Shown piece by piece: positions 3,198-62,248 of a stretch of DNA of 64,000 bases. The DNA is taken from assembly GCA_028015205.1 (NCBI GenBank), contig CM051520.1, positions 34,773,528-34,837,527 on the forward strand, given 5' to 3'. Under the pieces are notes generated by a model. That model saw nothing but the letters and a program-made list of their open reading frames with translations, did not search any database and had not been told where the DNA came from. Position numbers and translations under genes: made by a program. Position 1 is the first letter of the stretch; each line of letters starts with the position of its first letter. Source of the DNA: Mytilisepta virgata (lineage: Eukaryota > Mollusca > Bivalvia > Mytilida > Mytilidae).

Positions 3198-6060
3198 ATT
3201 ATTATGTTCAAAATAAATCAAGTCAGGTTTGTATTAAATAATGGTGTAAAGCGTTTCTTGTAATACTTGTGATTGTTTTAAATCAACTCTCGGATTCAAT
3301 TGGGGTCAAGTGGAGCTCACGTTCTACTGTCAATAGGTCTATAGTCTTATACTACATAAAGAATGCAGAAATATTAATTGAACAAACGAAAAAAAAACAA
3401 GAAGGAAATGTTTTGCATAAGGTTTCGTTGTACTGTTAACAATATTTCATGGGAAATGACATTTGAAGGTCACCCTTGTAAAGCAAATTTGTCAGACTTT
3501 ATATGAACATATTCAAAACAGGGTACCTTCTTGGTGTGTAAATCATCTGATTGTTTCTTACATACGGTTTAGTTATTCTTTTAAGGAAATAAATCTGATT
3601 AATTGAGTGTTAGTAGAAATTTAAATACTAATTAGCTTTGACCAGTGGCAGTTTAAGTAGCAGATCATGGAAAGTAATATATTTACACGTGTAGATGTCC
3701 ACCTAAATACCTACTACAGTTTTCCTTGTACTGTTGAAATGAATGCTTTCATTGAAAATATTTTACCTTCACAAACAAGTTATTTAAAATATAATATTCG
3801 TTTCTGGATGACACGTCGTGTGTTAAAACCTATTCAAAAGAAATATTTAAATTATTTTTAAAGGATCAGTACTTTTCGTTACCCATAAACACTTAGTTAC
3901 CCACTATATGAGTGTAACAAAAGGATACTTTTCTATACATTACTTACAAATATAATATGACAGTAGGGATCGAGGAGGGGTAGTTAAGAGTGTCGTCTGG
4001 TGTCTTATTTTGCATTGAACATCTCGATAATTTGATAGCTAATATTGCAATGAATAACCTTGTAAACTCTTAAACAGTAGCTTGCCCTTTAATTTCTAAG
4101 CTGGGAGTAGAGTATCGTTTGGGAAAAGAATACCCTAGAGTAGATATCCCCCTATAAAGACGGTTGTTATCTGGATAAATATCAACAGAAGAATACCGAA
4201 GCGACAAATCTATGTGCAATGTCCATACATCCGAAATCAGATAATGGTAAATCATTTTTTTTACTTGAATGTACAAAAATCTGATTTAAGTTGCTACTAG
4301 CAGTGCACTATGTATTGAAGAAAGAGAAAACTATGAAAATAGACATTTGGTACAGGTCAAGCTAGAATAAGTAAGTATCCATGGGAACGATTGTACAGAG
4401 ACATTGTACAGGTTTCCGAGTAGTTACTGTTTCCGCTGTGGCATGATTCATAGAAAGACTGTGTTGAAATTTGAAATTGATAAATTTTGAATTTCTGTTA
4501 AATGTTGTGTTTCACTCTCTCAGTCAAAGTTGACTTCATTTAATTTTTGTATAATTGTTTAGGTCCGTTTTGTTTTACATGAATTGCTCACAGTGGTATG
4601 CTGATTTCTTTCTGTAATGTTTTGAGATCTAATGTTTTGGTCGCGAATGTAATTCATTAAACCCAATCCTTGTACGCATTTGGTATCTAGGATTATTTAC
4701 AAATGTAAATTTACTTATTACATTTCTGGGTTGGTTGATCCGGGTTTCATGGTATACCCTATTGTCTATACAATCACAGATTAAAAGCCGATATATCCAC
4801 AAATTGGAATCTATTGACCAAATGTTCCCGAACTTTGAATATCTGTTGAGGATAGGACAAGAAGTATCAGCTGATTGTCTATCATGTATAAATTCTGACA
4901 GCACATCCGAAAAATATCGGATTAAAACTCACTATTGAACCTCCTAAAGGTCATGGCATTTATACAATAAATACTGTTCATGATTGTTAGTGTATTTAAA
5001 CATATCTATAAAGAATGATATTTAGTTTAAAGAGGCGTATCGATTTTGTAAAGTTAAACCGATCTTTCATATGACTATTGATTTAACAGTAAGATAGGGA
5101 ATATTACATGTATTATGGTGACAGTTTAATTCGTCAATTAACATAGAGAACTCATGTTGTATATAAAGTTTACTGTGGCAGCCCAAGCACATGTTTTATC
5201 ATCCGTTGGTACGCTTTATCATGCAATATTAATATCGTTGTAATCACTAAACTGAAAGACGCAAACTTTTACATCATTTAATATTTCTTGTTTTATTCCA
5301 TATTATAGAATTATAGTCGTATAAATTTAAAAGACGTACAACCATAAAAATGACCACCGCCGAAGGCGAAGTTTATATTAATGTTTTAGGTCTATTAAAA
5401 CTCATATCAACCGATACAAAAGACTATACTTTGTTTTACGACATAATCCGTTAACTACGTAATTTTAAATCTACATTCTGTGATATGTGTACTCCGTTAA
5501 TCCCTCCCCCGCCCCCAAATAAAGAAGAAAAAAGTCATCTTCTTCCTTAATTCCTATTTTAAACTTCAAAAGTGGAATAAATATACAGACATGAAATTCC
5601 AGAAGATCTTGTAGAGTAGGGGTTTTTCTAGGTTTATCTACTTTGGCAAAATTACGAATTTTTTTGTTGTTGCAAAAACAATTGAGTTTCGATACAATAA
5701 TCAAATATTTAATGATTTATTTTGCATAAAATATGCAAGGTAAAGAAATACTTTCCAAGTCACTGAAATACGCAGTAAAAAGTTGGGCTGTTATATTCCC
5801 ATGATGCAGGTTTTAACTTTATCCAGTTCATGCAGGGGGATATATACGGGGATAAAAAAATCAATAGACGATGAACCAAAAATTAAAAAAAGTATGACAT
5901 CAACCTTCTACTGGGAATTTGAGTTTAAACTATTTGTACGAAGCAAACCAATATCTACCATTAAATACGAAAACAAGTGAAATAAAACACCACGAAATTG
6001 TAATAACATCAGGACCGCCATAATTATACTCATCTTGATTTACGTCTGCGACCGTTCTTT
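3198..6060. other. AT-rich sequence, no supported gene
   Basis: Several 60-90 codon open frames occur on both strands (for example 4070-4276 minus, 4629-4904 minus, 4735-4938 plus). They overlap each other, match no protein I recognise and have no exon-type splice context. I see no RNA gene or repeat boundary. Confidence 0.45.
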
Positions 6061-6065
6061 CAATC

Positions 6066-7272
6066 TCACATTTTTTTAGCCCACCTGGCTATTGCCATCA
6101 CTTGGCAGGAATGATGTTTGTGAGTCATATACAGATATTCCTCATTTAATTTTGATCGAGCAAAACACATGGCCGCCGTAGGCAATTGATGTTTCTGATT
6201 GGCTGAGTTTTTAAAAATCCTTTGAAACTTCTTGGCCAAATGGAACAAAACTTGACAAGAAGAATACATTGCATATGGGAGGCCCTTTACAAAGTCTCCT
6301 CATATCGCCCCGATCGTGCAACAAACATATATATATGGCCGTCATAGACAATTCTTGTTTCTTATTGGTTTATTAAAAAAATTGGCAAATTGGGACCAAA
6401 CTTTGGTGGAATGGTCCATGGATGGCCCCCTTCCAAAATCGTGTCCAGCATCCCGGCGGGGATGGGGGTTCAAAAATATTCTTCTATGTAACTACATGGC
6501 CAATTGGAACCAGACTTTGCAGCAATGGTCCTTGGATAGTTCTCTTTCAGAATTGTGTCCGATCATCTAGAATGTCAACCAAGATGGCCGTCATAGCCGA
6601 ACTTAGTTTAAGATAGGACCTTCTTGTCAGAAACCACTAAGCCAATTAGAACCAAATTACCCTTAGGTGGTCTTCTTTCTGAATAATGTCCGATGACCCG
6701 GAATGTCAACAAAGATGGCCGTCATAGCCAAACATAGTTAAACATAGAACACAACAGGTAAATTCATTAAAAAATCTTCTTGTCTAAAACTATTAAGCCA
6801 ATATGAACCAGATTTGACAGAAATGGTGTTTTAGTGGTCCGCTTTCACCATTATGTCAGATAACTCCGAATGTCAACCAAGAAGACCGCCACAACCGAAC
6901 TTAGTTTAACATAGGACCCTATGGGAAAATTAATAAAAAACTCTTTTTGTCTGAAACAAATGAGAAGATTGGAAGCAAGCTTGGCATAAATTGTCTTTTG
7001 CTGGTCATCTTCCAGAATTTTGTCAGATGATCCGGACTGTCGACAAAAAATGCCGACAATGCTGAACTTAGTTTAACATAGGAACCCACATTTTCTGGTC
7101 TGAAAGCACTTGGACATTTGGAACAAGACTTGGTGGTCATAGTTATAAGATTGTCTTCTTTCAGAATTATGTCCAATAATACAGATGTTTGTTTCTTATG
7201 TGCTTCTATGGCTGTTATGGCTGTTGATTGGTCAATTGAATCCAGGTGAGTGATACATGCTCCTGGGAGCCT
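6066..7272 (+). repeat. Tandem array with YY1-like motifs, element A
   Basis: It begins TTTAGCCCACCTGGC and ends CAGGTGAGTGATACATGCTCC..GGGAGCCTCTAA, the terminal pair of this family. Inside are about seven diverged units of about 150-165 bp. Each carries the phrases 'ctgaaaccactaagccaatt', 'tggtcctctttcagaattgtgtcc' and an AAGATGGCCGYC-type motif. Short open frames inside are by-products of the repeat. Confidence 0.85.
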
Positions 7273-11764: not shown

Positions 11765-14700
11765 GTCCAAGACTGCAAACATGGCGCAGTAAGTATACTG
11801 TTTAAAAATTAATCAGAATATACCGGAATAACAAACAACAGAAAAATAAATTAAACACTGAACTAATCATATAAACTGAAAACTGTGAATGCCATAAAAA
11901 ATATCAGGTAAAGAGATATCCTGCCGCCGGTAGAGAATTATTTTATCTAAAAATAATAATAAAGGCACAAACTTCCGTATGTTCTCTCGTATAAATATAG
12001 ATTATATTAAATGTGCAGATCTGCTGTGTTCAAAGCAGGCCATTCTAGCTGCCTAATGTCATCTCACGATTTAGTGTGATTTTACATTTTCGTACATGTC
12101 ACAGCTGGTTGGCTAGCTTCTTCTTAGTATTGGCACTATGTGTAATGGCTTCGATTTGCCTTAATTCAATATTTTATTATTTTGATATTCTTTGTTGTAT
12201 TCAAACATTTCTTTTATAAATTATTTCTATTCAGTAAATATACATGTGCCCAATTTTAACCTTAAGATGTCAAACTTTCAGTGACCAATTCACTCCATAA
12301 ATCCTAAAATGATGGATCGTTGCAAATTTTCTACCAATCTCACTAGGTTTCATTGTGACAGAACCATTCTCGTTTTTAGCTCACCTGGCCTATAAGGCCA
12401 CATGAAAAATTGCCATCATTTTGAAATCACTGAGCCAATTGGAACCGAACTTTATTGGAATGGCCCTTGGGTGGCCCCTTCCATAATTTTGTCCGATGAC
12501 ATGGACTGTGAACCAAGATGCCCCCTCCCCCCCCCCAGCCGAGCTTTGTCTAACATTGGACCATATGGGAAATTCATTTAAAAATTTGCTTGTCTGAAAC
12601 CCCTTGACCAATTGGAACCAGAATTGGCAGCAATGGTCCTTTGGTGGCCTTCTTTCAGAATTGCGTCCAAAATTGATTTAACATAGGAACCTATGGAAAA
12701 ATTCATTTAATAAAACTTCTTGCCTGAAACTAGACTTTGCAGCAAGGATCCTTCAATGGCCCTCTTCCCGAATTGTGTCCAATGGCATGTTCTGTCAACA
12801 AAGATAGCCGTCACAGCTGAACTTAGTTTAACATAGGACCTTATTGAAAATTCGTTTAAAAAATCTTCTTATCTGAAATCACTGAGCCAATTGGAATCAC
12901 AAGAATGGCAAGAATGATCCTCATATGGTCCTCTTCAATATTTATGTATATAAATGTCAAATGACCGGGACTATCAACCTAGATGAATGCAACAGCCGCA
13001 CTTAGTTTAACATTGGACCCTATGGGGAATTCCTTTAAAATTCTGATTGTCTGAAACCATTTGAACAATTGGAACCAGGCTTGGCAGCCCTTTGGTGGCC
13101 TTCTTTCAGAATTGTATCCCATGACCCAGAAAGTGAACCAAAATGGCTGCCACACCCGAACTTACTTTAACTTTTATTCCTTGTATTGGACATGTTAGAT
13201 CTCCTTAGCTGGGTTGAATTTCTAAAACTTGTCATTTTAAGCACAAATGTAAACTTCTGTAATTTTTCAGTTTATGCATCAACAGATGCGCAAAAATGTT
13301 TTACAATTTTATTTTTCTAAAACGTGGGCCCATAGGTCCTAATTTTAGAAAATTGTGACTTTAAGCTTAAGATCTATTTCGTGTTGCAATTTATGCTTTT
13401 TATTCATATATATATTATTTTCCTACACTATCTGTGGATGCTTAGTAAGGTTTTATAATTTTATTTTCCAAAATTTGGACCCACAGGGTCAATTTAAGTT
13501 TGTTACGTAATCTTATCTTTTATTTTTACATTAATGCCCTTTATTTATATGCAGTATTGTCAAATAACATATGCAGATGCGCAATAAGGTTTTATAATTT
13601 AAATTTTTGTAAAAGTGGGGCCCGTAGGGTTTAAAATTTGAAATTTTCATTAAAAGCTTGTGACCTAAACTCCTCTTTCATTTTGCAATTTATGCATTTT
13701 ATTTGTAAAAATGTATATAATAAGTTCCTACAATATATGTACATGCGCAAATCGGTTTAAAGAATTTTGATTTCTAAACTTGGGGTCCACTTGGTTTGAA
13801 TTTAAAAAATTGTAAGATTAAGCCTGTGATCTAAGCTATGTAGGGTGTATTGTTTAAATTCTTAACAGAATGATTGTATATTAATTTAAAATGCGAATAA
13901 GGTTTTATATTTTTCCTTTAATTTCACTTTTTCGTTATATAGATAATGTCTTGTCGTTAAATAACGACAAAATTCAAGACTTTCTACATCTTATCTACCC
14001 CAGTGAGCTTGAAATTAAGGATACTACAGATACAGCAAAGTCCGCTTCATATTTGTATTTGTTTCTTGAAATAGACTATGAGGGACGTTTGAAGACAAAA
14101 CTTTATGACAAACGTGATGATTTCAACTTTCCTATTGTTAATGTTCCCTTCTTGAGTAGCAATATACCAGCATCGCCTGCATATGGCGTCTACGTTTCTC
14201 AGCTTATCCGATTTTCAAGGGCATGCGTCAGTTACCATGACGTTCGACAAAGAGGATTACTGCTGTCACAAAAGCTTCTTAAGCAGGGTTTTATCAGGGA
14301 AAAGTTGATGTCATCACTTAGGAAATTTTACGTCGTCATCACATTGACCATTACAGTGTTCCAATATCTAAGATGATGTTGGACCTGTTTCCACTGTCGT
14401 ATCCTTTCATGTGCCTCCACCGATTTGTGACTTCCACCGGATTGACTTTGTTGAACTTCATGACGGGTGCCGTACCCTTCCGGAGAACCTGGGTTCACTC
14501 CTGGTTTTTATAGGAGTTCGTGTTGTTCATTGTTTTTTAGTTTTCTGTGTTTATTTGTTGTGCTTGTGGTTGTTCATTTGTCTTCCCGGGTTTGTCTGTC
14601 CAATGGATTACGTTTGTTTTGAATTTTCCTTCGCTATATTTGTCCTTTTTTCATGCACTAATTTTTGTAATAGAGCAAATTTTATCAGTATTCTATTATA

Positions 14701-31989: not shown

Positions 31990-33680
31990 GTCCGAGATAA
32001 ATTTCGTCATTAATTATTGTACAAATTAGCTAATCTAGGAATGGGAAAGCATTTATATTACCCAATAAAAAATATGTTATCAAAGACAAACATTGCTCTT
32101 AAGTTAGAAGGATGTCATTCAGAATATTTCTAAATAAACAGGGGAGTAAAACAAGGGGATTCACTTAGTCCTACTCTTTTCAACATGTTTATAAATGATT
32201 TAAGTTCAAACTTTGACAGGGATGATTGTCAACCTTCAATTCTTCTAAACTCAAAAGTTGGTTCTCTGTCATTTGCAGATGATCTACTTATCATTTCAGA
32301 AAGTAAAGAAGGTCTTCAAACAAGTGTAAATAATTTAAGTGAATATTGTGGAAAGTGGCAGCTAACTTTAAACGTTAAAAAGACGAAAACTATGATAGTT
32401 CAAAATAATTGTATAAATTCTGATTCATTCATCAGTTTTAATGATGAGAGAATTCAAAATACTTTCGAGTATAAATTTTTAGGATGCTTATTAAAAAGCA
32501 ATGGTAATCTAAAGTCTAGTCTAAATGATCTAGCAAAAAAGGCAAGAAAGGTATTATTTTTACTTAGAGAAAAAGCCATGTCTATGGGAAATTTCCCAGT
32601 TAAAGTAATGAATAACTTATTTGATAAATTAATTAGACCAATTTTAACTTATAGTTCTGAGATTTCTTTTATGGACTACTATTTGCCCTTTTATAGGGCA
32701 AAAAAGAGAGCAGCCCAGACAAATAATAGAGTAGATTATATTTCCTTTGTGGATAAAACTTCTTTAGAAAAAGTACACTTAAATTTTTGTAAGTCTCTAT
32801 TAGGGACAAAGAAATCTTCTTCAAATATTGGTGTGAGAACAGAATTAGGAAGATATCCTATTGAAAACTTCATACATAGTCAATCACTTCTATATCTAGC
32901 AAGACTTCACACAAATGATATAAATCCATTGCTCAAAGAATCTTTTGAACTTACTAAAGCACTTGACAATCAAGGCACTTACAGCTGGTACACCTTTGTT
33001 AAAGATATTGTTTCAGAAGTAGAAAATGGAGACAATATTTCTAGTTGCAAGTCATTAAAGGATGTAAAACTTTTGAAATATTCTATAAAAAATGGTGTAA
33101 ATGAGAAATTTAAAAAGATATTTTTAGATAGAATAAATGGATATGATGAAAATAGTAAATTCTATCTATATAAGAAGTTAAATCCATCTCTCAAAGGAGA
33201 GTTTTATCTTACAGATCCATTATTTTCAATTAGAAATATATTCACAAAACTGCGTATTAGTGATCACGACCTCGAAATAGAAAAAGGTCGTTATTATAAA
33301 ATCCCTCGGCAAGATAGAATTTGTAAAATTTGCAAGACTATTGAAGATGAATCTCATTTCATTTTAAAATGTAAAACTAATAGTAAAATAAGGGAAACTT
33401 TGTTTAATAGTCTTAAGCTTGAAAATAGAGAATTTATAAACATGACAGATGATGAAAAACTGGTCTTTTTGCTTAACCCAACAAATAATAAACATATTAG
33501 AATGGTTGGCTTCTTTTTAAAGCAGTCATTAGAACTGAGGGCAGAAGTCTCATAATTCATTTGATTTGTTATAATGTCTGTTATTAATACTTATGCGTAT
33601 AATATTTGTATGTCTTTGTCACAAACTATATGTTTATGTTTAATGACAAATAAAAGTTCTAATATTAATGATAAAGATGA
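31990..33680 (+). pseudogene. Non-LTR retrotransposon RT and C-terminal zinc knuckle, 5'-truncated
   Basis: A 456-codon open frame (32185-33555) begins inside the RT domain at FINDLSSNF and has the catalytic FADD at 32272-32283 in SLSFADDLLIISES. Later come WQLTLNVKKTKTM and FEYKFLGCLLK. Near the end CKICKTIEDESHFILKC gives a C-x2-C-x7-H-x4-C knuckle, typical of LINE ORF2 C termini. The same frame extends upstream to about 31990 and includes RGVKQGDSLSPTLFN, but a TAA at about 32131 interrupts it. No endonuclease domain is present. The element ends in AT-rich DNA near 33680 without a clear tail. It resembles CR1/L2-group elements. The long intact frame suggests a fairly young copy. Confidence 0.85.
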
Positions 33681-38399: not shown

Positions 38400-39836
38400 T
38401 TTTCGCTGCCCATAGAACGTCTGGCGACTTGGCGTCCGTCGTCCGTCCGTCTGTAAAGTTTTACATTTTCATCTTCTCCTCTGAGACCCCTACACCTATT
38501 GAGCTGAAATTTGGCCTGAAGCTTCAGTGGAAGGTCCTTTACAAAGTTTGCATAAATCATCCCGGTCCGTCAAACAAAATGGCCGCCATTAGCATTTACA
38601 TGTTCTGATTGGTCGAAATTTTAAACTTCTTCTTCTCTGAAACCGTAAAGCAAAATGAACTGATTTTTTGGTATGGAGCATCTATGGTAGGTTCTTTACA
38701 AAGTTTGCATAAATCATCCTGGTCTGTGAAACAAAATGGCCGCCATGACCATTTACATGTTCTGATTGGTCTAAATTTAAAACATCTTCTCCTCTGAAAC
38801 CGTGAAACCAAATGAAATAATTTTTGGAATGGAGCATCTATGGAACGTCCTTTACAAAATTTGCATAATCATCCCGGTCTGTGAAACAAAATGGCCGCCA
38901 TGAGCATTTACATGTTCTGCTTCTCCTCTGAAACCGTAAAGCCGAATGAACTGATTTTTGGTATAAAGCATCTATGGAAGGTCCAATACAAAGTTTGCAT
39001 AACTCATCCCGGTCCGTGAAACAAAATGGCCGCCATGAGAATTTACATGTTCTGATTGGTCGAAATGTAAAACTTCTTCTCCTCTGAAACCGTAAAGCCA
39101 AATGAACTGATTTTTGGTATGGAGCATCTACGGAAGGTCCTTTACAAAGTTAGCATAAATCTGCTTGGTCTGTGAAACAAAATGGCCGCCATGAGCATTT
39201 ACAGGTTCTGATTAGTCGAAATTTAAAAATTCTTCTTCTCTGAAACCGTAAAACCAAATGAACTGATTTTTGGTATGGAGCATCTATGGAAGGTCCTTTA
39301 CCAAGTTTGCATAACTCATCCCGGTCTGTGAAACAAAATAGCCGCCGTGAGCATTTACTGTTCTGATTGGTCGAAATCTAAAACTTCTTCTCTGAAAACC
39401 GTAAAGCCAAATGAACTGATTTTAGGTATGGAGCATCTATGGAAGGTCCTTTACAAAATTTGCATAAATCTTCTTGGTCTGTAAAACAAAATGGCCGCCA
39501 TGTGCATTTACGTTTTCTGATCGGTCAAAATGTAAAACTTCTCCTCTGAAATGATAAAGCGAAATGAGCTGATTTTTTATATGGAACATCTATGGAAGGT
39601 CCTTTGCAAAATTTGCATAAATCATCCTGGTCCGTGAAACAAAATGGCTGCCATGAGCATTTAAATGTTCTGATTGGTCGAAATTTAAAACTTTTCTGAA
39701 ATCGTAAAGCTAAATGAACAGAATTTTGGTATGGAGCATCTATGGAAGGTCTTTTACAAAGTTTGCATAATTCATACCGGTCCGTGAAACAAAATGGCCA
39801 GGTGAGTGATACAGGCTCAGCCCACTGAGCCTCTTG
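38400..39836 (+). repeat. YY1-motif array, nine units at ~155-bp spacing, element G
   Basis: AAAATGGCCGCC-type motifs start at 38577, 38733, 38888, 39023, 39179, 39335, 39488, 39641 and 39791, so spacing is 150-156 bp with one 135-bp unit. Each unit reads 'ctctgaaaccgtaaagccaaatgaactgatttttggtatggagcatctatggaaggtcctttacaaagtttgcataa' with small changes. The start carries GGCGTCCGTCGTCCGTCCGTC. The 3' end is CAGGTGAGTGATACAGGCTC..GAGCCTCTTG. Both flanks carry the phrase 'aagctgttaattttgttttgac' (about 38366 and 39883), so the element inserted into, or duplicated with, the neighbouring minisatellite. Confidence 0.92.
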
Positions 39837-50809: not shown

Positions 50810-52480
50810 CGGCCGCGAGAAACAATGTGAAGCTTTTTCACCCATCCATCCTTTATATAGGTATTCTTACTTATTTTACTTTACTTTTTTACTTTAGCCC
50901 AATTGAAATAACGGTCTGTCCATTTGTACTTTTGACTTAAAACACTGAGAAGTTCTACAAAGTGTTTCTGAAATAAATTTAATTGTGAGGATTGGTCATG
51001 ATGTTTTGTTCAGTTCAGCTGATTTTTACACACTAAAGCATAACCCGCCAATGACGTTGTATACATGTTCCAGACCATACGAGTATGGTCATGATGGTCC
51101 GTACCATTTACATAATATTAGGGTTTTGTGACGGTTATATGCGAAATATTTGCCTGACGCGAAACGGAGGGTAATATGTCAATCAGACCTGGCAAATATT
51201 CGCGGAGGGTAATATGTCACTCAGACCTGGCAAATATTTCGCATATAACCGTCACAAGACCCTTATATTGTGATCATTATACTTCATGCTAATAATTCAT
51301 TTAACTTGTAATTAATTCATTTTACGCATGTAAATAAACGCATCGCTGACTAAGACATTTATTCGAAGCACTCTATTAAATGTACACAAAAACCTACGTG
51401 CCATATAAAGCCGCACGTGGACATACTATCACAGTTCATATGCCGTGTTGCATGATAAATGTACACAAAAACTCACGCGACATATAGAGCCGCATAATGC
51501 GGTATTTGCCGGATAGGTTGGAATTTATATGCGAATTATTAATGTTCCAAATATCACAGTAGTTTCTGGCATGAAGTATAATAAATGAGTATACGCATAT
51601 GGTCGCTGTCGATTCAGACTTATAATTATTTTATATCGTTCCGGTATTTCGAAAATATGATAAAAAATTATATTCTTTTCCAATAAAAGTACTGATCATA
51701 TATAGAATCATCTGTTTAAAACTCGCTTATCGTGTTGAACATGTTGAAAAATATAAGGAAAGAGTAATGGTGTATAAAATACCCTGAAGTTCTGTGAAAA
51801 GAACCATATATATATTTTTATCTGAATGCGATCAACTATATAATGATCTTTAAAAATTTTCTTTTTATTTTCAATTAATTGCTTCTTTGTTTAGATTTTC
51901 GAAAAGAGACATTTTTTTAAAATGATTTATACGATACATAAGCAATTTCATTTACCAAAAGACGTCGAATTTGCCATGATGCCAGAAAACTTCAGAATTA
52001 ATGATTCATAGGGGCGGATTCAGAGGGTAGACGAGTGGGGAAGGCACTATTTTCAATGATGATCTGCCCTTTTTCTCTTGTTGTTTCTCGTTATTTTTTT
52101 TTTTTTTTTTTTTTTTTTTTGGTTAATAAAGATTGTACAACTTTCATTATTGGGGGGGGGGGGGGGGTTACAGGATCAAATCTTCTTTTTGGTACAAAAA
52201 TACAAAATTTGGTAACTTACCGTCACAATACCCAAATTACGACCATGTGTTAAATTTCAGAAGCTGTCGAAAAATTTAAAGCAATTATTATATTTCGACT
52301 GCTGTTGTCATGTTGTAGAACATATTATCTGGATATTTAGTTTGAACTCTGGTCTCTAATGGTCTCTGTGGATGAAAAGTAAATGTAAGAAAGAGGAGTA
52401 AATCAAAAAGCGCAATCCATTAACATACAAATCCGGGAAGACAAATGAACAACCACAATCGCAACAAATAAACACTGAAA
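50810..52480. other. AT-rich stretch with a foldback and homopolymer tracts
   Basis: Arms 51120-51153 and 51229-51263 (GGTTATATGCGAAATATTTG and its mirror) form a foldback whose loop contains GACGCGAAACGGAGG and a 38-bp tandem duplication (GGAGGGTAATATGTCA...). A T-run lies at about 52095-52121 and a G-run of 16 at 52152-52167. No gene is seen. Confidence 0.65.
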
Positions 52481-52770
52481 CAATGAACAACACGAATTAA
52501 CTCCTAAGGATATAAAAACCAGGAGTGAACTCAGGTGCTCCGGAGGGTAAGCAGTTCCTGCTCCGTATACGGCACCCTTCGTGAAGTTCAACAAAGCCAA
52601 TCCGGTTGTAGTCCCAAATAGCTGGAGTATATAAATGTTACGACAGTGGGAACAGGTCCAATATCATCTTCGATATATAGGAATGATGTAACGGTCAATC
52701 AACTCGTGATGACGACCGTAAAATTTTCGAAACGATGACATCAGCTTATCCCTGATACAAATGTACCAAG
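52480..52770 (-). pseudogene. RT-element 3' fragment, copy 2
   Basis: On the minus strand it reads RDKLMSSFRKFYGRHHELID and then the non-coding tail with 'ggtttttatatccttaggagttaattcgtgttgttcattgtttcagtg'-like wording, homologous to 14285-14560. Only the extreme C-terminus and tail remain. Confidence 0.65.
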
Positions 52771-53284: not shown

Positions 53285-53535
53285 GTATCATTGACTCCTA
53301 TAAAAACCAGGAGTGAATCCAGGTGCTCCGGGTGTGTAAACAGTCCCTGCTCCGTATACGACACCCGTCGTGAAATTCAACAAAGTAAATCCGGTGGTAG
53401 TCACAAATCGGCGGAGTTACATGAAATGTTACGACAGTGGGAATTATCTTAGATATTGGAACACTGTGGCGTCAACCAATTTGAGATGACAACCGTAAAA
53501 AGTGATGACATCAGCGTTTCCGTTATAAAACCGTG
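53285..53535 (-). pseudogene. RT-element 3' fragment, copy 3
   Basis: The tail phrases 'cactcctggtttttatagga', 'cacgacgggtgtcgtatacgg' and 'ccactgtcgtaacattt' on the minus strand match copies 1 and 2. Coding sequence is nearly gone. Copies 2 and 3 lie about 770 bp apart in the same orientation. Confidence 0.6.
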
Positions 53536-53715
53536 GTTAAATAATTTGATTTCAAATTTCCTGCGATATAAATATATCTTGAGTTTGAGTTAACCGAAAG
53601 ACTTTAAACTAAAAGGAACAAATCTAACGAAAAACTAAATATATAGTTAATTCTAGGTAGGATGAGTTGTCTTCTAGAGACACATATGTATAAAATAAAT
53701 GACCTTATCTATCTA

Positions 53716-53950
53716 TTAGATATCGGGTAGTCCTTGTATAAATTCTACACCGTCCAAGGTACCGTAAAGTGTTTGGTATTCGCAGTAACACCATAAAATT
53801 TGATCTGGAAAAGGGCACATCATATGGGGGATATTAGCCACGAATCGTTTGACAAAGACCGATTTCCCACTTCCCGTAGGACCGGCAATCAAACAGGTAA
53901 ACGGATGAATCCAAGGCATGAAATGATTCGGATCGAATCCATCGGAACAA
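53716..53950 (-). pseudogene. P-loop ATPase fragment, A32/FtsK-like packaging type
   Basis: The minus frame reads HPFTCLIAGPTGSGKSVFVK with Walker A GPTGSGKS at 53860-53883. It is followed by PDQILWCYCEYQTLY and VEFIQGLPD, the conserved block after the P-loop in a family abundant in marine-invertebrate genomes. It stops right after this block. Walker B and the rest are missing, and 5' sequence is cut off by the repeat at 54.0 kb. Assignment to the genome-packaging ATPases of Polinton/adintovirus-like elements rests on the neighbouring polymerase and on recalled resemblance. Confidence 0.6.
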
Positions 53951-54036
53951 TAAAAGATATTAAGGTCTTTGGTAGGATTACAATAGTAAGGTTCTTCTTG
54001 TTACTGCTGAAGGAATGTGGTTTGTTGCTGCATATT

Positions 54037-54545
54037 GTTGTTACCTATTTTGTGAAATCAACTCCTCCTACAGTTTTTCACCCACATCCTTGAAACTTCA
54101 TAGAATGTTTCTATATATATTGAAGATGTGCACCTCACTTTATGGAGTTATTTCAGGAATTATTGCCCATTTTTCCAAACTTTTGAACTTAGTCGATTTT
54201 TATTGACGTCTTCAATAGAGGGTATCTATTTTGTGAAATCAACTCCTCCCACAGTTGTTCACCCACATCCTTGAAACTTCATAGAATGTTTCTATATATA
54301 TTGAAGATGTGCACCTGACTTTATGGAATTATTTCAGGAATTATTTCCCATTGTTCCAAACTTTTGAACTTAGTCGTTTTTTATTGACATCTTCAATAGA
54401 GGGTACCTATTTTACGAAATCAACTCCCCCTACAATTTTTCACCCGCATCGTTGAAACTTCACAGAATCTTTTAATACATATTGAAGATGTGCACCTCAC
54501 TTTATGGAATTATTTCAGGAATTATTTCCCATTTTTCCAAACAAG
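54037..54545. repeat. Three tandem units of ~185 bp
   Basis: Units begin TACCTATTTTGTGAAATCAA at 54038, 54225 and 54408. They share 'cttcatagaatgtttctatatatattgaagatgtgcacctcact' and 'ggaattatttcccatttttccaaac'. The third is cut short. They separate the ATPase fragment from the rest of the virus-like block. Confidence 0.9.
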
Positions 54546-54771
54546 TGTTTATCAACATGTAATCAAAGCAAATATTGCTTTCTTCACCTATTTCTAATTA
54601 AATTGATGACTGCCTCTGTGCTCGTACACCAACATACAATGTGTCTGATTTTGTCTATATAAATATTCATGACTGCCAATGTGCAATATGATCTTGTAAT
54701 CACCCTTATCACCACTACAGTAAACACCCAGTAAAGCAACCCGGCCATTTGTGCCTTTGACCCATTTTATT

Positions 54772-55315
54772 TTACATTTTTACAAAATCTACATCAGTCA
54801 ATGTTTTGAGTTCTGGTTCTTTCTCTTCAAACAAAAGTGTGATCTTCTTCAGTTCTTGCCATTCGTAGCGACTCAGCGTTATACCTCTCTTGGTTGGTTG
54901 TAAAAACAATTCTCCGTTAGGCACAAAATGTTTTCTGGCGTGAATAATAGGATAGGGTGCTTTAATGATGACATAAACATCTTCTCCCAGATGATATCTC
55001 CATTTTACTGGTTCTTTGTCCTTGATTCTGGTGATCAAGTCTTCCACCACCTCTGTAGTACTGCAACACATTTTCCACTGCATCAACGACAGGCTGACTC
55101 CGATCTTGGTGGGCACCGTTTCACTTTCCCAAAATCTGAGATCTACTCTTTTGCTGCCATTCCATTCTCTCCTCTACCCAGTAGTACTTTCAAAGGAATA
55201 TTGCAATCTGTCATGGCATCTTGGACATCGCTCTTGGTCTGGTCTTTGGTTTTATTTTCTTTACGTGAGATATCATATGTAGTCTGATTCTTCTTCTTGC
55301 TGCCCTATTTATATA
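54772..55315 (-). pseudogene. PC4-like protein with two related units, frameshifted
   Basis: A 114-codon frame (55116 to 54772) contains PTKIGVSLSLMQW and, 70 residues on, PTKRGITLSRYEWQELKK. Each resembles the C-terminal core of the transcriptional coactivator PC4/p15 (LxPTKKGISLsxxqWxxL), a single-strand DNA-binding fold. VYVIIKAPYPIIHARKHFV before the second unit matches the preceding strands. A frameshift near 55145 splits the start of the first unit from an upstream frame holding SDVQDAMTDCNIPLKVLL. A TATA-like TATATAAATA (minus) lies at 55306-55315. In a viral setting such a protein might bind single-stranded replication intermediates (inference). Confidence 0.55.
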
Positions 55316-55378
55316 TCGGAGCCTTCGTGAAGATGGACTGGATTGGTTCTTATATTATGAAACTTGAAACATGATTGG

Positions 55379-55636
55379 CTATCTTTCCGACATCGTGATT
55401 GGGTAACTTCTTCCGTTCCGATCGGTCGAAAATCTGGCATTTTCATTGGTCAATTCCAACTTCTTCGATAGATCGACACGATGGTATACTGTCCAAATAT
55501 GCGGCGCCCAATCCGGAAACTGCTCACAATAGGTACGAGTAAACACCGACAATACGACCAGTCTTCCTTGGTTCACCACATCGTCTTTGAACATGGCAGA
55601 GACGATTCTCTCGTATACTCGTACGTACGGGGTCAT
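55379..55636 (-). CDS. Small protein with weak BH1-like motif
   Basis: The 85-codon frame starts MTPYVRVYERIVSAMFKDD and contains FKDDVVNQGRLVVLSVF. This resembles the BH1 motif of Bcl-2 family proteins (F.DG..NWGR.v.l..f), with Q in place of the usual W. BH2 and BH3 are not evident and the length is short for the family. TATAAAAG (minus) at 55656-55663, about 20 bp before the ATG, supports a real short transcription unit. Viral Bcl-2 homologues block host apoptosis, but here this is only a motif-level guess. It could be an unrelated helical protein. Confidence 0.4.
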   Translation of the reverse strand: MTPYVRVYERIVSAMFKDDVVNQGRLVVLSVFTRTYCEQFPDWAPHIWTVYHRVDLSKKLELTNENARFSTDRNGRSYPITMSER

Positions 55637-55670
55637 CTCTGACTATCTTCACTTCCTTTTATACATGAGA

Positions 55671-58600
55671 CTACTCTGTATTGACAGGCTGGTAACTGTC
55701 TACATATAAACATATAATTACAAAGGCTGCATTAACCTTTTTTTTCGCTCTTGCTAGTAGGTGTAGACTTGATTGTCTACAGAACGAAACCCTCTGTTGA
55801 TTCCGGAGAGAGCCAGAGGTCTTTGACAGGAGAATGTCCATGTATTTCTCTTTGTTAATGTCGTTGGTTCTCTTCTTAACCCGTTTACAGCTGAACTTGG
55901 TTTCGCCTCCAAAGCAAAAATACGTCTTGCTACACAGGGCAATCATCCCGTCACCAATGAATTCTGTTTTGAACATGCAGTCCTGGAGTCCTCTTGTCCC
56001 AAGCAGCCAGTTGTGGTGTGTCAGTACGGGGAAACCAATTCTTCTTCTCTGCTTCAAAGCGCCGACGCAACTCCGGTTTGATTACTTCCTCCAAACTATT
56101 GCCAGAGAGAGCCATGTAGGCACTGTCGGTGTCCATTGCACAATATTGAAAATCATGGTGATCGACAAAGACGTCGTAAAATCGTAGTAAAATTCCAACA
56201 TCCGAAGCTTGGCGTACTGGTAAACTAAACAGCCAATGTGCATGATCAGGTCCAGGTATGTGGTCTTCTTACTCATTTCCACTTCGAAAGTTTTGTCGCT
56301 GAGCTGGTTGCACCGGTGGAAAGAGGGATCTACGAGGTAGCGACTGATCTGGTGTTCCTAGGAGTAAATCACATCCGTGTGCCTTTCCTTGTTGGTCACC
56401 GAATTGCCATAGCTGGAATTACCCCTCGGTTTCTCGTTTTCGGCAATTATCTTTTTATTTGGGTCGGCATCTCCGGCTCGCCTGGCATTAACGAAGGGTC
56501 TGAAACACGCCGACGTCGTGTACTCCACCACATGGTAAATCTTGGTGACTTTCAGTCCGTGGTTGACGTACCATTTAAGCAACGGGGATATTACCATGAT
56601 CTTCTCTCCAAACATGCTGCCGATTAAAGACTTTCTAGGCTGCTGCATGATTCCTTTTTCATCTGCATAACTCTTCATATGGTCCCCAATGTCGTCTTTG
56701 GACACGTCCACGTTCTTAAAGACTAGAGGCATTTCTGCAAATTTTGACTTTAGGTCGTCAGGTACGTGCAGGTCCACTCCCAAGGCACCAAACAACTTGT
56801 CCTTCATCACGGCTCTCATCATGTCGTCTTTGGTCATCGTGGCGAAAAGATCGCAGGGTCTCTGCCTCTGGGATACGAAGGTCTTGATTCCTTGGTCTTC
56901 TCTCTTTTACCGTCCCATTCACTCTCCCACACCTGTTTCACTTGGTAGTCGTTTTCTATGATTTTTCTTGGGTAGTCTTGTATAATTCGTCCAGGCTCCA
57001 AGGGTTTTCTGTCTTGCCCCGAGTCAGGCGAAAACAATGTCCGTGCCACAGGCAGCCGTGGAACTCGTAAACTGTATTAGTTTTCTTACACTAGCCGTCT
57101 ACGGGAAGGCGCCGACGTCCGATCAGTTTTGCCGTGTCGTTCCCCTGGTGTCCTGTCTCCATATGTGGTGTCCTGTCACCTTGGCTTCCCATTCCAACCA
57201 CTCGATTGCCATTCGTTCGTACCTTCGAGGTGTCTGTCTTTTAAAATCATCCTCGCTCTTGCGTCGGGCGAAATGACCCGTTGGCATATCCTGCATGATG
57301 CTCCACAAGAAAAAGGCATTGGTGTCCACACCGTAGATCTTCTTGCACGGTTTTGGGTCTTCGTATTCATCAGGACGAATGAAGGTCTGGTCTTTCTCAT
57401 GGTATCTGTAGAAGACGATGCTGGGTCCAACCACTATGTTTTCTTTGTACAACTCGTACAGACTTTGTTCTTCTCGTCCGGAACGGTGAAATAATCGGAC
57501 AGACCATCGAACATTGTTTTCAGTGTGAGTCCCGGGACGCTGATGCCGTGTTTAAACATGTCCACCTTCAATACTTTGTTATACACAAACATCTTCTCGA
57601 TGGCCTCCAGCATGGGCTCCACGTCTTTGTTGTTATACCATACCAAGAACTCTTTCATGTTCTTTGTGTTCTTTTTCTGCCAGACGTCCCGACACAGCTT
57701 GTACTTTTCGGGTGCAGTGTACTAAAAAATGCCTGGTTTGGTGGTTACTCCATCACTGCCAATTTGCCTAAACCGGTCATCCACTCGTATGGAAAAAAAC
57801 CTTTCTCTTCCGTACAGCTTTCAAAAACTGGGAGTAACTAAATCCGGGAGCCAGGTAGTTGGTGATGTCCAAAAATTTCAACTTCTCCATCTTGATACAC
57901 TAAAATTGTTGTTGCGCTTCACGGTATACTTTATCTTCTGACTTTCCACCAGACGAGTGAAGAAATCTATCTTCATGGCGTTCACGTCGTATTTCCCAGT
58001 GTTCAAGCCAATCACGGGTAATTCTTGGAGATGTCGTTCCAGTTGCTGTTTCAACTTGTACAGGTGATGTTTCTTTTCCTGGCGTTCTCGCCCTTCGTCG
58101 TCTTGGTATTCTTCCAGGTCCCGGTCCAGTCTCTCCTTGATCTCTTCAAAGACACCTGCATACCTGGGCATGAGTAAGCGAAAGGCTTTGTCACTGATTT
58201 CTGTCAAATGTATCAAACACAAATGAACGGTTTCACTGCTATCGCCTTCGGACACGAAACAAACTGGATCTGCAAACTCTGTTACGTTGGAACACACGGA
58301 GACGCTGAGCAAAACGTGCTGGCTTGTTCATTCCAATTTATCCGACTTTGGTTTGTCTGTAGGTTGAAGCATCGCCTCTATATCATGAGTGGCTCTGTAA
58401 GGGTAATATCTGTCTTTTATGGATACCTTCATCCTCCAAACGTTCAAACACGGTCTGCTGTGTATGGTACACGCCGCCGGGATATTTGTAGAGTACGTCA
58501 CCGGTGCAGGTTCTCTCGTGTCTGTGAAGCATGCGCACATGCTTCCACAACTTGTCACATTTGGAACATAGGTAACTGTGAGTGTATTTCTCCATGTCGC

Positions 58601-59819
58601 TGACATAACTGAAATGGTTGTCGTACAAATTCAGGTTCATGCTGTCCTGGAAACTGTAAGGAGAACTTCGTACCAATCTCGCCGCTACGTCGCCGTCTTC
58701 TGTCTCATATGTTGACTTGGAACAGTGGTTCGATGTACGCCAAATCGTCTAAACTTATACCTTTGAAATCACCGCCAAACATTTCTTTTTTCTGCAAATA
58801 TTGTCGATGGTAAGTCTTGGCAAGTGTTTCTACGTCTGTTACGGGAGCTCCGCGGCGGACGGCCAAACACCGGTAAAACACAGGTTGTCATTATATAGTC
58901 CTGTTGATCCACCAACCAGTGCGACAACACCACGATTTTTCAAAATAAAGTCTGGTAACACGACTCTGGCTCCTATCGGGTGTTCCATCAACTTGTTAAC
59001 ATAAAACGTGGCATTTGTCAGTAAATGCACCACCCACTTGGTATCTGGTCTCTGCTGCCGGTTAAACTCCAAAATGTCGTGTCTAATCAGGTGTGGTACG
59101 TTGAAAAATCTGGCGTTGCTCTGGCTGGAATTGAAGTATCTTTGTTCTCTGGTCTCTACGTTCCTCAGTACAAATCCAAACGACACGTTGATCTTGAAGG
59201 CCGTGGTCTGAAGTTCGAAAATGTGGCGAACAATGTCAGGAAAGGTGGCAGTTGTAATCTCGTTCAACATAAAGTTAAACCTATCCGGGACACGGTTGCC
59301 GGTATTTTCTTCTGTCCGGATGGTCTGCCAGTGTCTCAGGTACAAAACCTTGTATCGGGATCTTCTGGCAAAACGTCTGGCTGAAGGTTGACGGATGTCT
59401 TCACTGGTAGGCTGTCTGGTCTTTTCGCAAAGGGGCCAGGTAGTCTCTTGACTCTTGCCTGGTTTCTTCATCCTGGGTTTGGCATCTGGCTTGGTATGCA
59501 ACAATCTGTGGCGAGCAAGGTTGTCCAATCTGTTGTTAAAATACTGCCCACAGTCTGGACACGGCAATGTGTTTTTGTGGGACTCCTGGTGGCGATTCTG
59601 GTTGTCGGCCCTGGCAAACTCCTTTCCACATACCTGGCAGACAATGGACTGGGCTGCATCTGGCTTTCCAGGCTCATTCTGCTGGTGGGTATCTTCGTGG
59701 CGCTTCCTGGCATCTGCCCTGGAAAATTCCTTTCCACATACCTGGCAGGAATACGTCTGGGATGAAGCAGCATGTGTCCTCTGGTGCCGAAGCAGGTTTC
59801 TCTTCTCGGTAGAGAACAT
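55671..59819 (-). pseudogene. Protein-primed family B DNA polymerase with N-terminal zinc fingers, degraded
   Basis: Reading right to left, the N-terminal zinc-finger frame (59819-58839) leads into polymerase segments in changing frames. Landmarks are: a Cys/His segment CSKCDKLWKHVRMLHRHERT (about 58560); Exo I-like HDIEAM (58376-58384); Exo II-like NTGKYD (57986-58003); motif A region GVDTNAFFLWSIMQDMP (about 57326); motif B KPRGNSSYG (56406-56432); motif C DTDS with both aspartates present (56122-56133); and the thumb-side NDINKEKYMDIL (about 55850). The order is that of DNA_pol_B_2 enzymes of Polintons, adintoviruses and adenoviruses. At least six frame changes and several stops break it, so it cannot be active. 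The frames on the plus strand here are shadows. Confidence 0.85.
58839..59819 (-). CDS. C2H2 zinc-finger N-terminal region of the polymerase
   Basis: This is an intact 326-codon frame. Three complete C2H2 fingers (CQVCGKEFSRADARKRHEDTH-like) lie at residues of about 24-46, 60-82 and 89-112. The first finger, ahead of them, has lost its CxxC pair (FSTEKRNLLRHQRTH). A basic linker and a domain with RFNFMLNEITTATF and LPDFILKNRGVVALVGGSTG follow. It breaks after YNDNLCF, where related proteins run on into the polymerase, so the last few residues are out of frame. A TATA box TATATATA lies at 59869-59876, about 50 bp before the ATG. The fingers could tether the polymerase to DNA or mediate terminal-protein contacts (inference). 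Confidence 0.75.
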   Translation of the reverse strand: MFSTEKRNLLRHQRTHAASSQTYSCQVCGKEFSRADARKRHEDTHQQNEPGKPDAAQSIVCQVCGKEFARADNQNRHQESHKNTLPCPDCGQYFNNRLDNLARHRLLHTKPDAKPRMKKPGKSQETTWPLCEKTRQPTSEDIRQPSARRFARRSRYKVLYLRHWQTIRTEENTGNRVPDRFNFMLNEITTATFPDIVRHIFELQTTAFKINVSFGFVLRNVETREQRYFNSSQSNARFFNVPHLIRHDILEFNRQQRPDTKWVVHLLTNATFYVNKLMEHPIGARVVLPDFILKNRGVVALVGGSTGLYNDNLCFTGVWPSAAELP

Positions 59820-59868
59820 GGTCGTTACCTTTTCAAAGGTTCAAGACGAAGTGAGAGGTTGTGCACTG

Positions 59869-59932
59869 TATATATAGCCAGAACGCGGACGTAAAAGAGA
59901 GCACTCCAAAGTCTTCGCTCACGGCCGCGTTC
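59869..59932 (-). promoter_or_regulatory. Compact promoter of the zinc-finger polymerase gene
   Basis: TATATATA at 59869-59876 is about 50 bp upstream of the ATG at 59819 (minus). Just upstream, GAACGCGG (59881-59888) and CCGCGTTC (59925-59932) form an 8-bp inverted repeat that could be an operator or hairpin. Confidence 0.5.
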
Positions 59933-59959
59933 CCCGACATGTTTCAATCCGTTTTCTAA

Positions 59960-60430
59960 TGGAAATTAGCACTGGAAATTGTTCCGAAGACGTCTAAATG
60001 GTTCCGAATGTTGACGAAAACACCCGATTGTTGCCAAAAGCCAGATAATAATTAAAATAATTAAAATAATTAGAAAGTGTATACAAAATGGTTCTTAAGA
60101 CGTACAAATACTTCAGAAGGTCCTTCAGAATATTTAAAATAATAATGGTTCCGAAGACGTCCAAATACTTCGGAATAGCCAGAAAATACTCAAATTAATG
60201 AAAATTAATAAAAAATTAGAAAAATTAAAAAATTATGTAAATATATTACGACTTGTTAAAAAAAATATAATAATAATAAAAATTCAATTTAAAAAATAAT
60301 TAAATAAAAAAAATTAAAATAAAAAAATTCAATACAAAAAAACACAAAAAAAAACAATAAAAAAAAATTAAAAAATTAGAAAAATAAAAAATTATGTAAA
60401 TTTATTTAAGTTTTTTTTTAGTTAAAAAGT
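59960..60430. repeat. Repeats around TTCCGAAGACGTC, then very A-rich DNA
   Basis: GTTCCGAAGACGTC or a variant occurs at about 59980, 60089 (GTTCTTAAGACGTA) and 60147, each followed by AAATACTTC-like wording. From 60190 to 60430 the sequence is almost only A and T, with repeated 'aaaattagaaaaat.aaaaaattatgtaaat'. No gene is present. Confidence 0.6.
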
Positions 60431-60599
60431 AAATATAATAAATATAAGAAAAGAAAAATTATCTCCCCCTTGTATTTTGGAGAAGAATATGGAAAAAATC
60501 CTGGCGGAGAACGTTACCTCCCCCTTGAACTGAAGTTTTGAATTATCTCCACTTGTATTGATGGAGGAGCTCCCTTTGAACTTACTGTTCCTCCTACAC

Positions 60600-61035
60600 A
60601 TGCCCAGACGACACATCCGGGTCCCAGCACGTGACTTACGTCACTTCTGTAAAAAATAATTGTAAACCATCACTTCCGGTTGCGCATGTGCGCAAACCAA
60701 TTCAGGTTCGGTCACGCATTCGCGGTCGGCACATCCGGGTCACTTCCGTAAACAAATCATGGGAAAATGGCGCGAAAATCCATCATGTCCGGCTGCGCAT
60801 GCGCACAAACCACTTCCGGGTACTTCATGTTCCGGTCACGTAGCGCAGACCATACATCCGGGTCCTAGAACACGACTTACGTCACTTCCGTAAAATAATT
60901 ACTGAAAAACATACTGCTTCCGGTTGCGCATGCGCGCAAAATACTTCAGGGTATTTTCGGTTCCGGTCACGTGACTTCCGGTTCCGGTGACGTCATTTCC
61001 TCTTCCGGTGCTGTCACTTCCGGTTCCACCACGCT
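60600..61035. promoter_or_regulatory. CpG-rich cluster of ETS, NRF1, CRE, E-box and E2F-like sites in ~245-bp repeat units
   Basis: Motifs seen: ACTTCCGG at 60672, 60812 and 60974, and again at 61016; NRF1-like GCGCATGTGCGC (60682), GCGCATGCGC (60795) and GCGCATGCGCGC (60926); TTACGTCA at 60636 and 60877, and a full CRE TGACGTCA at 60988; CACGTG at 60628 and 60968; GGCGCGAAA (60769). The order 'acatccgggtcc..cacg..acttacgtcacttc' repeats with a period of about 243 bp. It lies upstream of the polymerase promoter. It looks like a viral or element terminal control region, or an exapted enhancer. Confidence 0.65.
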
Positions 61036-61202
61036 CCACCACAAATGCGACTTTGCCTGTGCTCATATACTACTAAGGAAAAATCAGAATTTCTCCAAAA
61101 ATTATACAGACCATTATAATATCATTAAAAACAACAGTGTAAAGTTTGAAGTTAATCAAGCAAGGCATTTTCAAGATACAGCGCGACATGAAACTCCCCT
61201 TT

Positions 61203-62248
61203 TTAAGCTCACCTTGCCAAAGGCCATGTGAGCTTTTGACATCACTTGGGGTCCGTCGTCCGTCCGTTAACTTTTCACATTTTAATCTTCTTTTCTGAAA
61301 CCAGTGAGCCAAATAGAATTAAATTTGGCAGGAAGCATCTATGTAAGGTCCTTTATAAAGATATCTCATTTCTTCCAGATCGGACAACAAACATGGCCGC
61401 CACGGGCAATTGTTGTTTCTGATTGGCTGAGTTTTCAAAAATTGGTCTCCTCTGAAACTGTTAAGCCAAATGTAACGAAACTTGACAGGAAGCATCTGTG
61501 GGAGGTTGTTTACAATGTTTCCGCATTTCGTCCTGATCGGGCAACAAACATGGCCGCTATGAAAAATTCTTGTGTCTCATTAGTTGATTAAAAAAAATCT
61601 CTGTGGAACTACTGGGCCAAATGGAACGAAACTTGACAGGAAGCATCTATGGGAGGTTCTTTACAATGTTTCCTTATTTTGTCCTGATCGGACTAAAAAT
61701 ATGGCCATCATGGACAGTTCTTGTTTCTGATTGGCTGATATAAAAAAAAAAACTCTTCTTCTCTGAAACTGCTTGGCCAAATGGAACGAAACTTGATAGG
61801 AAGCATGTATTGGAGGTCCTTTATAAAGTCTTCTCATTTCGTCGTGATCAGACTACAAATATGGCCGCCATGGGGCAGTTCTTGTTTCTGATTGGCCGAT
61901 ATAAAAGAAATCTTTCTCTCTGAAATCTCTTGGCCAAATGGAACGAAACTTGACAGGAAGCATCTATGGGAGGTTCTTTACAAAGTTTCCTCATTTCATT
62001 GTGATCGGGTATAACAAACATGGCCGCCATGGAAAAGTTTTGTTTCTCATTGGTTTATTTAAAAAAAAAACCTTTTTCTGTGGAACTGCTTGGTCAAATG
62101 GAATGAAACTTGACAAGAAGCATCTGTGGGAGGTTTTAACAAAGTTTTCTCATTTTGTCAAGATCATGCGACAAACATGGCCGCCATGGCCATTTCTTGT
62201 TTTTGCCAGGTGAGCGATACAGGCTCAGCCCTCTGAGCCTCTAGTTTA
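61203..62248 (+). repeat. YY1-motif array, six units at ~157-bp spacing, element I
   Basis: The 5' end is TTAAGCTCACCTTGCCAAAG then GGCCATGTGAGCT. ATGGCCGCC-type motifs start at 61393, 61550, 61701, 61861, 62020 and 62177 (intervals 157, 151, 160, 159, 157). The 3' end is CAGGTGAGCGATACAGGCTC..GAGCCTCTAG. Unit phrases include 'ggccaaatggaacgaaacttgacaggaagcatctatgggaggt' and 'gattggctga'. Confidence 0.93.

Follow-up and report, generated by a model that had tools for sequence, protein, structure and literature searches.

A 64-kb stretch of DNA from the bivalve Mytilisepta virgata (the window, to which all coordinates below refer) carries four gene relics in a row on its minus strand, which raises the question of whether they are the remains of a single virus-like element and, if so, of which kind. 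The relics comprise a zinc-finger family B DNA polymerase (PolB), a BH1-type mini-Bcl-2, a tandem PC4 and an A32/FtsK-type ATPase, as a preliminary description of the same DNA had proposed and the present analysis confirms. They are a truncated, decayed endogenous insertion of an adintovirus/Maverick (Maverick/Polinton), because full-type copies in the same genome keep the same gene order and then continue into an integrase, a putative capsid and a putative protease gene. Read along the minus strand from 61074 to 53719, the element consists of a terminal repeat, the PolB relic, the mini-Bcl-2 frame, the tandem PC4 relic and the start of the ATPase gene. Of the bounds first given for it, 53716..61035, the right one falls 39 bases short of the true terminus at 61074.

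The terminal inverted repeat (60580..61074, minus strand) has its terminus, AGTAGTAT, at 61074 and matches both ends of two full-type copies, F and G, as well as ends of palindromic elements described below. It holds an array of sites that we take to be NRF1-, ETS- and CREB-like. Three NRF1-type sites (two of them overlapping), four CCGGAAGT sites and three TGACGTMA sites lie within 60430-61090, compared with zero, two and two, respectively, in the rest of the window, and each of these counts was reached in 0 of 500 shuffles; SP1 and CCAAT showed no excess in the same interval. The motif CCGGAAG occurs 6-12 times in the first 700 nt of 12/12 termini, which are copies of one family, always on one strand, and once in 8.6 kb of PolB body. 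Judging from these motif arrays, the terminal repeats probably have a second role, as a promoter or enhancer. The subterminal region upstream of PolB (59841..60579, minus strand) is AT-rich at 60180-60430, has a TATA-like site at 59876 and shows weaker DNA matches to the subterminal parts of the loci L012, L020, L023 and L024. All three TATA boxes previously noticed near gene starts are present, as TATAWAW at 59876, 55663 and 55315; they give mild support, because 7.4% of the 1317 minus-strand ATGs in the window have such a site within 60 nt upstream by background.

The PolB relic (55745..59840, minus strand) comprises C2H2 fingers, an N-terminal (TP/OTU-like) region, and exonuclease and palm motifs in order, distributed over all three frames. 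An N-terminal alignment scan of the genome_contigs collection led to three contigs (L001-L003), all filed under one tubeworm endosymbiont MAG. The first of them, L001 (QGON01000029.1), encodes a zinc-finger PolB of 1409 aa, whose frame is open at the 5' end, together with an ATPase, an integrase with rve and Chromo domains, and further frames. Its PolB matches the window at 59732-55745 (E 2e-95 and 1e-92), collinearly across all three minus frames, with 12 frame changes when L001 alone is used, 14 with the addition of a short piece that P0002 and P0014 match, and six stops inside the L001 matches as counted from the alignments. Since there are no intron-sized gaps to account for these frame changes and stops, the window PolB, which is 87% identical to copy G at the nucleotide level, is a broken gene. 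The L001 PolB matches DNA_pol_B_2 (E 2.9e-9), and the window relic collinear with it is a predicted protein-primed family B polymerase, as in Maverick/Polinton elements.

The zinc fingers (zf-C2H2, E 2.6e-11, three stretches in the frame 58839-59840) had been considered unusual on a polymerase, and this view has to be abandoned. The 333-aa frame of zinc fingers and PolB N-terminus has 122 homologues, including proteins named from octocoral and amphioxus, and many of them have zf-C2H2 at the same place. A tree built from 38 chosen rows places the window in a group of 18 (100/100) that excludes the rows from tubeworm, octocoral and amphioxus. The predicted model of this frame reached a pLDDT of 58, and the N-terminal region of PolB is conserved in relatives. 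At that pLDDT, the best viral-structure match of the model was a C2H2 protein from Drosophila-associated adintovirus 2 (E 5.3e-6, TM 0.22), which indicates that fingers occur in an adintovirus protein and little more, because most other matches were zinc-finger proteins of other viruses.

Downstream of PolB, a mini-Bcl-2 (BH1-type) frame is open at 55379..55642 (minus strand; ATG at 55636), and the corresponding frame of its relatives has 76 aa. The Pfam match of the window frame to Bcl-2 (E 0.012) is under the curated cut-off, and chance-looking matches of similar E occur in other frames. Bcl-2 was the top family in 5/5 copies scanned (the window and four relatives; E 0.0008-0.012, all under the cut-off), and 5/5 PDB matches belonged to the Bcl-2 family, each with E about 1. 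The BH1-like gene of the preliminary description is thus borne out by the recurrence of Bcl-2 as top family, though every match is below the cut-off. An inner stop is present in 2/6 relatives' Bcl-2 frames, and no homologue of the mini-Bcl-2 was found in the protein collection.

The tandem PC4 relic (54772..55271, minus strand) has one frame change near its start and matches Pfam PC4 with E 8.7e-14. Its double nature, also suggested previously, is confirmed, as the two halves match PC4 independently (2.4e-7 and 2.6e-5). The relic has 106 homologues, with identity up to 76%. The frame alone matched nothing in PDB, the family profile matched human PC4 (E 8e-4), and the predicted model (pLDDT 39) was unusable. 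Outside this genome, no contigs joining PC4 and PolB homologues were matched by size, save 1848/1940, which are short and unlikely to be the same.

The last relic is the start of a packaging-type ATPase gene (53719..54027, minus strand), identified by its match to relatives and 93% identical in nucleotides to copy G. The L001 ATPase matches it at 53913-53725 with 48% identity over 65 aa (E 2e-16), the window gene ends after residue 69 of 207, and the Walker A motif is intact, as had been noted. With this match of the truncated window gene, and with Pox_A32 in copy G at 1.3e-4, just under the cut-off, the gene is a predicted FtsK/HerA-type packaging ATPase. The gap between PC4 and ATPase is about 740 bp in the window vs about 114 bp in copy G. 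The extra DNA (54028..54767), which includes a 181-bp array at 54042-54584, is probably a later insertion, and part of it recurs outside the palindromic element C (L017). A frame at 54594-54779 was considered as a gene and dropped, for it recurs at 93% identity outside that element (L017).

The match to copy G ends at 53719, leaving about 7.5 kb on the far side of G unrepresented in the window. No relative of an integrase, capsid or protease was found in the 64-kb window by comparison with proteins of L001-L003, in agreement with the absence reported at first. Eleven further L001-L003 proteins gave noise only (best E 0.077), and 20 block-shuffled windows searched with the same 13 queries gave a best E of 0.017. 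No second terminus of the element was found in the window. We conclude that the integrase/virion side has been lost from this copy and that the copy is decayed. Rfam returned nothing at gathering thresholds for the window or five loci, and IMG/VR scans with six queries returned no relative. Single-frame Pfam matches in the window are weak when taken alone (Adeno_IVa2 0.0013, FtsK 0.0015, Bcl-2 0.012), and other frames gave unrelated matches of similar weakness in the same scan. Such isolated weakness, together with a window that by itself lacks integrase and capsid genes, would be expected if the relics were unrelated genes adjacent by chance, or a host gene cluster. The rest of the genome makes this exceedingly improbable: copies F and G, which contradict it already, hold the same order between terminal repeats, and PolB is linked to PC4 at 26 listed places.

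These relatives of the truncated adintovirus/Maverick came from searches of the species' own genome (1,034,323,453 bases, 1.03 Gb, in 109 contigs). The PolB N-terminal frame gave at least 248 matches (121 of 2012 candidates scored) and the PC4 frame at least 150 (150 of 981 scored), both being lower bounds. Sixteen 10-kb stretches covering eight elements, together with 20 kb of a ninth, were read through; they represent six PolB palindromes, one PC4 palindrome and two full-type copies, and the other elements are judged from orientation and spacing.

The two full-type copies, F (C4) and G (C1), have lengths of 14.7 and 15.3 kb and are collinear with L001. Their genes all run in one direction, in the order PolB, Bcl-2, PC4, ATPase, a frame like L001's 5677, integrase, two further frames, putative capsid and protease. 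Both copies are bounded by inverted repeats of about 0.4 kb that start with AGTAGTAT, and perfect 6-bp duplications lie outside these. Copy G encodes a predicted integrase with rve (6.4e-15) and a C-terminal chromodomain (Chromo, 9.1e-10), the combination expected of adintoviruses and absent from the window. Its putative protease matches Peptidase_C5 (0.0023, below the cut-off) and shares 38% identity with L001's frame over 105 aa. Close to its far end, copy G also encodes a 346-aa protein in which CARD (3.5e-10) and PC4 (5.4e-5) are combined. The 433-aa protein of G is 53% identical to L001's and had no Pfam, PHROGs or PDB match; from its position and this identity, it is a putative hexon/capsid. 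In copy F, a stretch of about 354 bp is missing from within the putative capsid gene, and therefore all named frames are open only in G.

Both copies thus keep PolB, mini-Bcl-2, PC4 and ATPase together with integrase, putative capsid and protease, as would be looked for in intact relatives, and support the proposal that the relics belong to an endogenised Polinton/adintovirus lineage whose accessory set is distinctive. Among the listed PolB places, 26/121 (window included) have PC4 2.5-7 kb downstream. PolB also recurs without these neighbours, as in the six pairs read, an outcome that the preliminary description had named as one that would refute its proposal; yet paired places coexist with the 26 PC4-linked ones, so the association is genuine without being a necessary one.

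Maverick/Polinton elements are marked by terminal repeats starting with AG and by 6-bp target duplications. Terminal inverted repeats with AGTAGTAT ends and perfect 6-bp duplications are present in 9/9 elements checked, and the window copy keeps one terminus only. The likeness extends to the protein-primed PolB, the integrase and the ATPase, while the palindromic derivatives, in which each arm has its own gene set, are a difference. Adintoviruses were reportedly described by Starrett et al. in 2021. As defined in PMC11071296, they have a PolB with an N-terminal OTU-like domain, a BLASTP-recognisable hexon and an rve integrase with a C-terminal chromodomain; according to the same text, some carry zinc-finger 'Ziftr' genes, and anti-apoptotic homologues are present in most mammal-associated ones. 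The Maverick/Polinton PolB has the layout TP-vOTU-exonuclease-palm, as given in PMC11071308. The present elements resemble adintoviruses in a PolB with a long N-terminal region, an rve and chromodomain integrase, a packaging ATPase and a putative adenain-like protease. Unlike them, they have tandem PC4, CARD-PC4 and a BH1-type mini-Bcl-2, which form a distinctive accessory set, and their zinc fingers are part of PolB. The term PC4 is absent from the main text of PMC11071296, and PC4 together with polinton or adintovirus (whole words) was not found in the literature searched. The contig L001 shares the zinc-finger PolB, ATPase, chromodomain integrase, and putative capsid and protease frames in the full-type order, but has no PC4 or Bcl-2 relative by tblastn, and its sister contig L003 differs in having Rep_fac-A_C and NADAR proteins ahead of PolB.

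Many of the relatives are arranged symmetrically. Among the 121 listed PolB places, 52 form 26 convergent pairs, 8.1-11.9 kb apart, and 43 are neither paired nor PC4-linked. Neighbouring PolB places within 13 kb (n = 32) are oriented +- in 27 cases, ++ in two, -- in two and -+ in one, while neighbours within 13 kb among the 150 listed PC4 places are -+ in 39/39, that is, 39 divergent pairs. PolB frames of at least 1390 aa occur at 45 of the listed places, 33 of them in pairs, 11 with PC4 downstream and one with neither. All six PolB pairs read are palindromic and span 15.05-15.39 kb, with arms 98.9-99.93% alike within an element, a central gap of 0.08-0.94 kb and arm identity of 91.9-98.5% between palindromes. 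No match to Bcl-2, PC4, ATPase, integrase, capsid or protease was found in these six, and in palindrome C the left PolB frame is split in two. The one PC4 palindrome read (14,290 bp) has in each arm an open PC4 of 172 aa, a Bcl-2 frame, a PolB piece in reverse orientation and two other frames. The Bcl-2 frame translated from this palindrome has an inner stop. The left arm contains about 70 copies of a 31-bp unit, and no ATPase, integrase or capsid match was found in the element. The same PolB piece and Bcl-2 are present in two more PC4 pairs (L029/L032 and L033/L034, as 3.4-kb loci only). The central core of the PC4 palindrome is also present in 6/6 PolB palindromes, but has no match of at least 100 nt in F, G or the window. 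Two ideas about the palindromes were dropped: that each class is one half of a split genome, given the PC4 palindrome read without ATPase, integrase or capsid match, and that telomere-like repeats at the palindrome centre reflect telomere fusion, as the orientation of the repeats does not fit.

Palindromes are a known class of assembly or library artefacts (fold-back reads). It is nevertheless very unlikely that the present ones belong to that class, for they recur at 26 PolB and 39 PC4 places, their arms differ by 0.07-1.05% around unpaired centres, and 7/7 read have AGTAGTAT ends with 6-bp duplications outside the whole palindrome. The same duplications bear on whether the palindromes became symmetric only once in the chromosome, through inverted duplication or gene conversion: they imply that the symmetric form itself was inserted. 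Gene conversion would likewise give arms more alike within than between elements, but the six PolB palindromes share one core that the two full copies lack, and we consider an origin after insertion unlikely. The own core, the high copy number and the own frames of the PC4 form might instead indicate an old self-sufficient transposon family with acquired viral genes. Against this, neither integrase nor ATPase was found in the seven read, and their ends and 6-bp duplications are identical in kind to those of the full element, which leaves such a family rather improbable.

The likeliest reading is that the palindromes are satellites that would form by snap-back replication and be inserted, and perhaps packaged, with the proteins of full copies. 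Ends, duplications and length (spans of 14.3-15.4 kb vs 14.7 and 15.3 kb) are of the full type, yet integrase and ATPase were not found in the seven read, so insertion probably relied on those proteins. Arms more alike within than between insertions fit a symmetry made anew in replication, e.g. by snap-back. The within-element arm divergence of 0.07-1.05% would point to young insertions, if the arms were identical at insertion. For the explanation as a whole, namely a truncated, decayed adintovirus/Maverick in the window, its full-type kin, and palindromes that are most likely satellites, we estimate a probability of roughly 0.87.

Judging by the protein families, PolB would start DNA synthesis from a protein bound at each end, and tandem PC4 may coat the displaced single strands, much as the DNA-binding protein of adenoviruses does. 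The mini-Bcl-2 and the CARD protein would act on cell death, the ATPase would fill capsids and the integrase would insert linear DNA. The accessory set suggests that the virus supplies proteins of its own for binding single strands and for controlling cell death. Linear palindromes of roughly genome length, with the same viral terminus on either side, are also known among the symmetric recombinants of adenoviruses (SYREC), which are made in replication and packaged, and among derivatives of linear plasmids with protein-primed replication. The seven elements fit this description in structure and length. They differ in being chromosomal, many-copy and equipped with open polymerase genes; SYREC palindromes appear to be the nearest parallel. 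SYREC was not found among the papers listed, and no palindromic Polinton was found in the titles and abstract openings of the 12 papers listed out of 106.

The analysis connects a decayed relic with relatives that are present in many copies in the same genome, and reveals a form not found described among the papers listed, namely giant palindromes of a protein-primed virus that are integrated with 6-bp duplications but lack the integrase they seem to need. Such palindromes therefore make snap-back replication, trans-mobilisation and the packaging limits of adintoviruses testable from genomes. More tentatively, and in our view somewhat doubtfully, full adintoviruses and genome-length PolB-only and PC4 plus Bcl-2 palindromic satellites might constitute a multi-part integrating virus system, sharing ends and core, in which the satellites would be mobilised in trans by the integrase of the full virus, perhaps packaged, possibly helping or hindering the virus, stored in the chromosomes and still young. 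If true, this system would be an animal counterpart of virophage-like or defective-interfering parasites.

The full-type element copy G of the same genome encodes a 346-aa protein (L025:6470-7507), in which a caspase recruitment domain (CARD, 3.5e-10) is fused to PC4 (5.4e-5). At the equivalent place in the other full-type copy, F, a PC4-like match is present at L022:832-1134.

The PC4 palindrome, a 14,290-bp mirror-image element of this genome, carries in its left arm, between the terminal repeat and PC4, an array of about 70 repeats of a 31-bp unit (L036:3824-6000), which is perhaps a length filler. At its centre, telomere-like (CCTAAC)12 and (GGTTAG)11 repeats face each other (L037:3801-3873 and 4080-4146). 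Also located in this palindrome are frames (L037:2875-3333, 4614-5072, and 5073-5504) that are 152 or 143 aa long and contain CxxC and C2H2-like residues; none of them matched Pfam.

As for the surroundings of the truncated relic in the window, a 157-bp tandem repeat adjoins the element terminus (61286-62202) and occurs again at 38427-39800 and 6100-6381. A dispersed repeat with three copies in the window, which are 72-76% alike (52400-52760, 53294-53540, and 14279-14625), lies immediately left of the truncated end. As well, an open reverse-transcriptase frame is present at 32134-33552 (RVT_1, 3.9e-16).

Among the relatives outside this genome, contig L003 encodes a NADAR protein (L003:28-585, 1.4e-23) and a Rep_fac-A_C protein (L003:875-1363, 1e-9) upstream of the zinc-finger family B polymerase, and the latter protein might be the single-strand binding protein of that lineage. 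The animal-virus-like contigs L001, L002, and L003 are all contained in a bacterial genome record, the Escarpia laminata (tubeworm) endosymbiont MAG, where they probably represent contamination.
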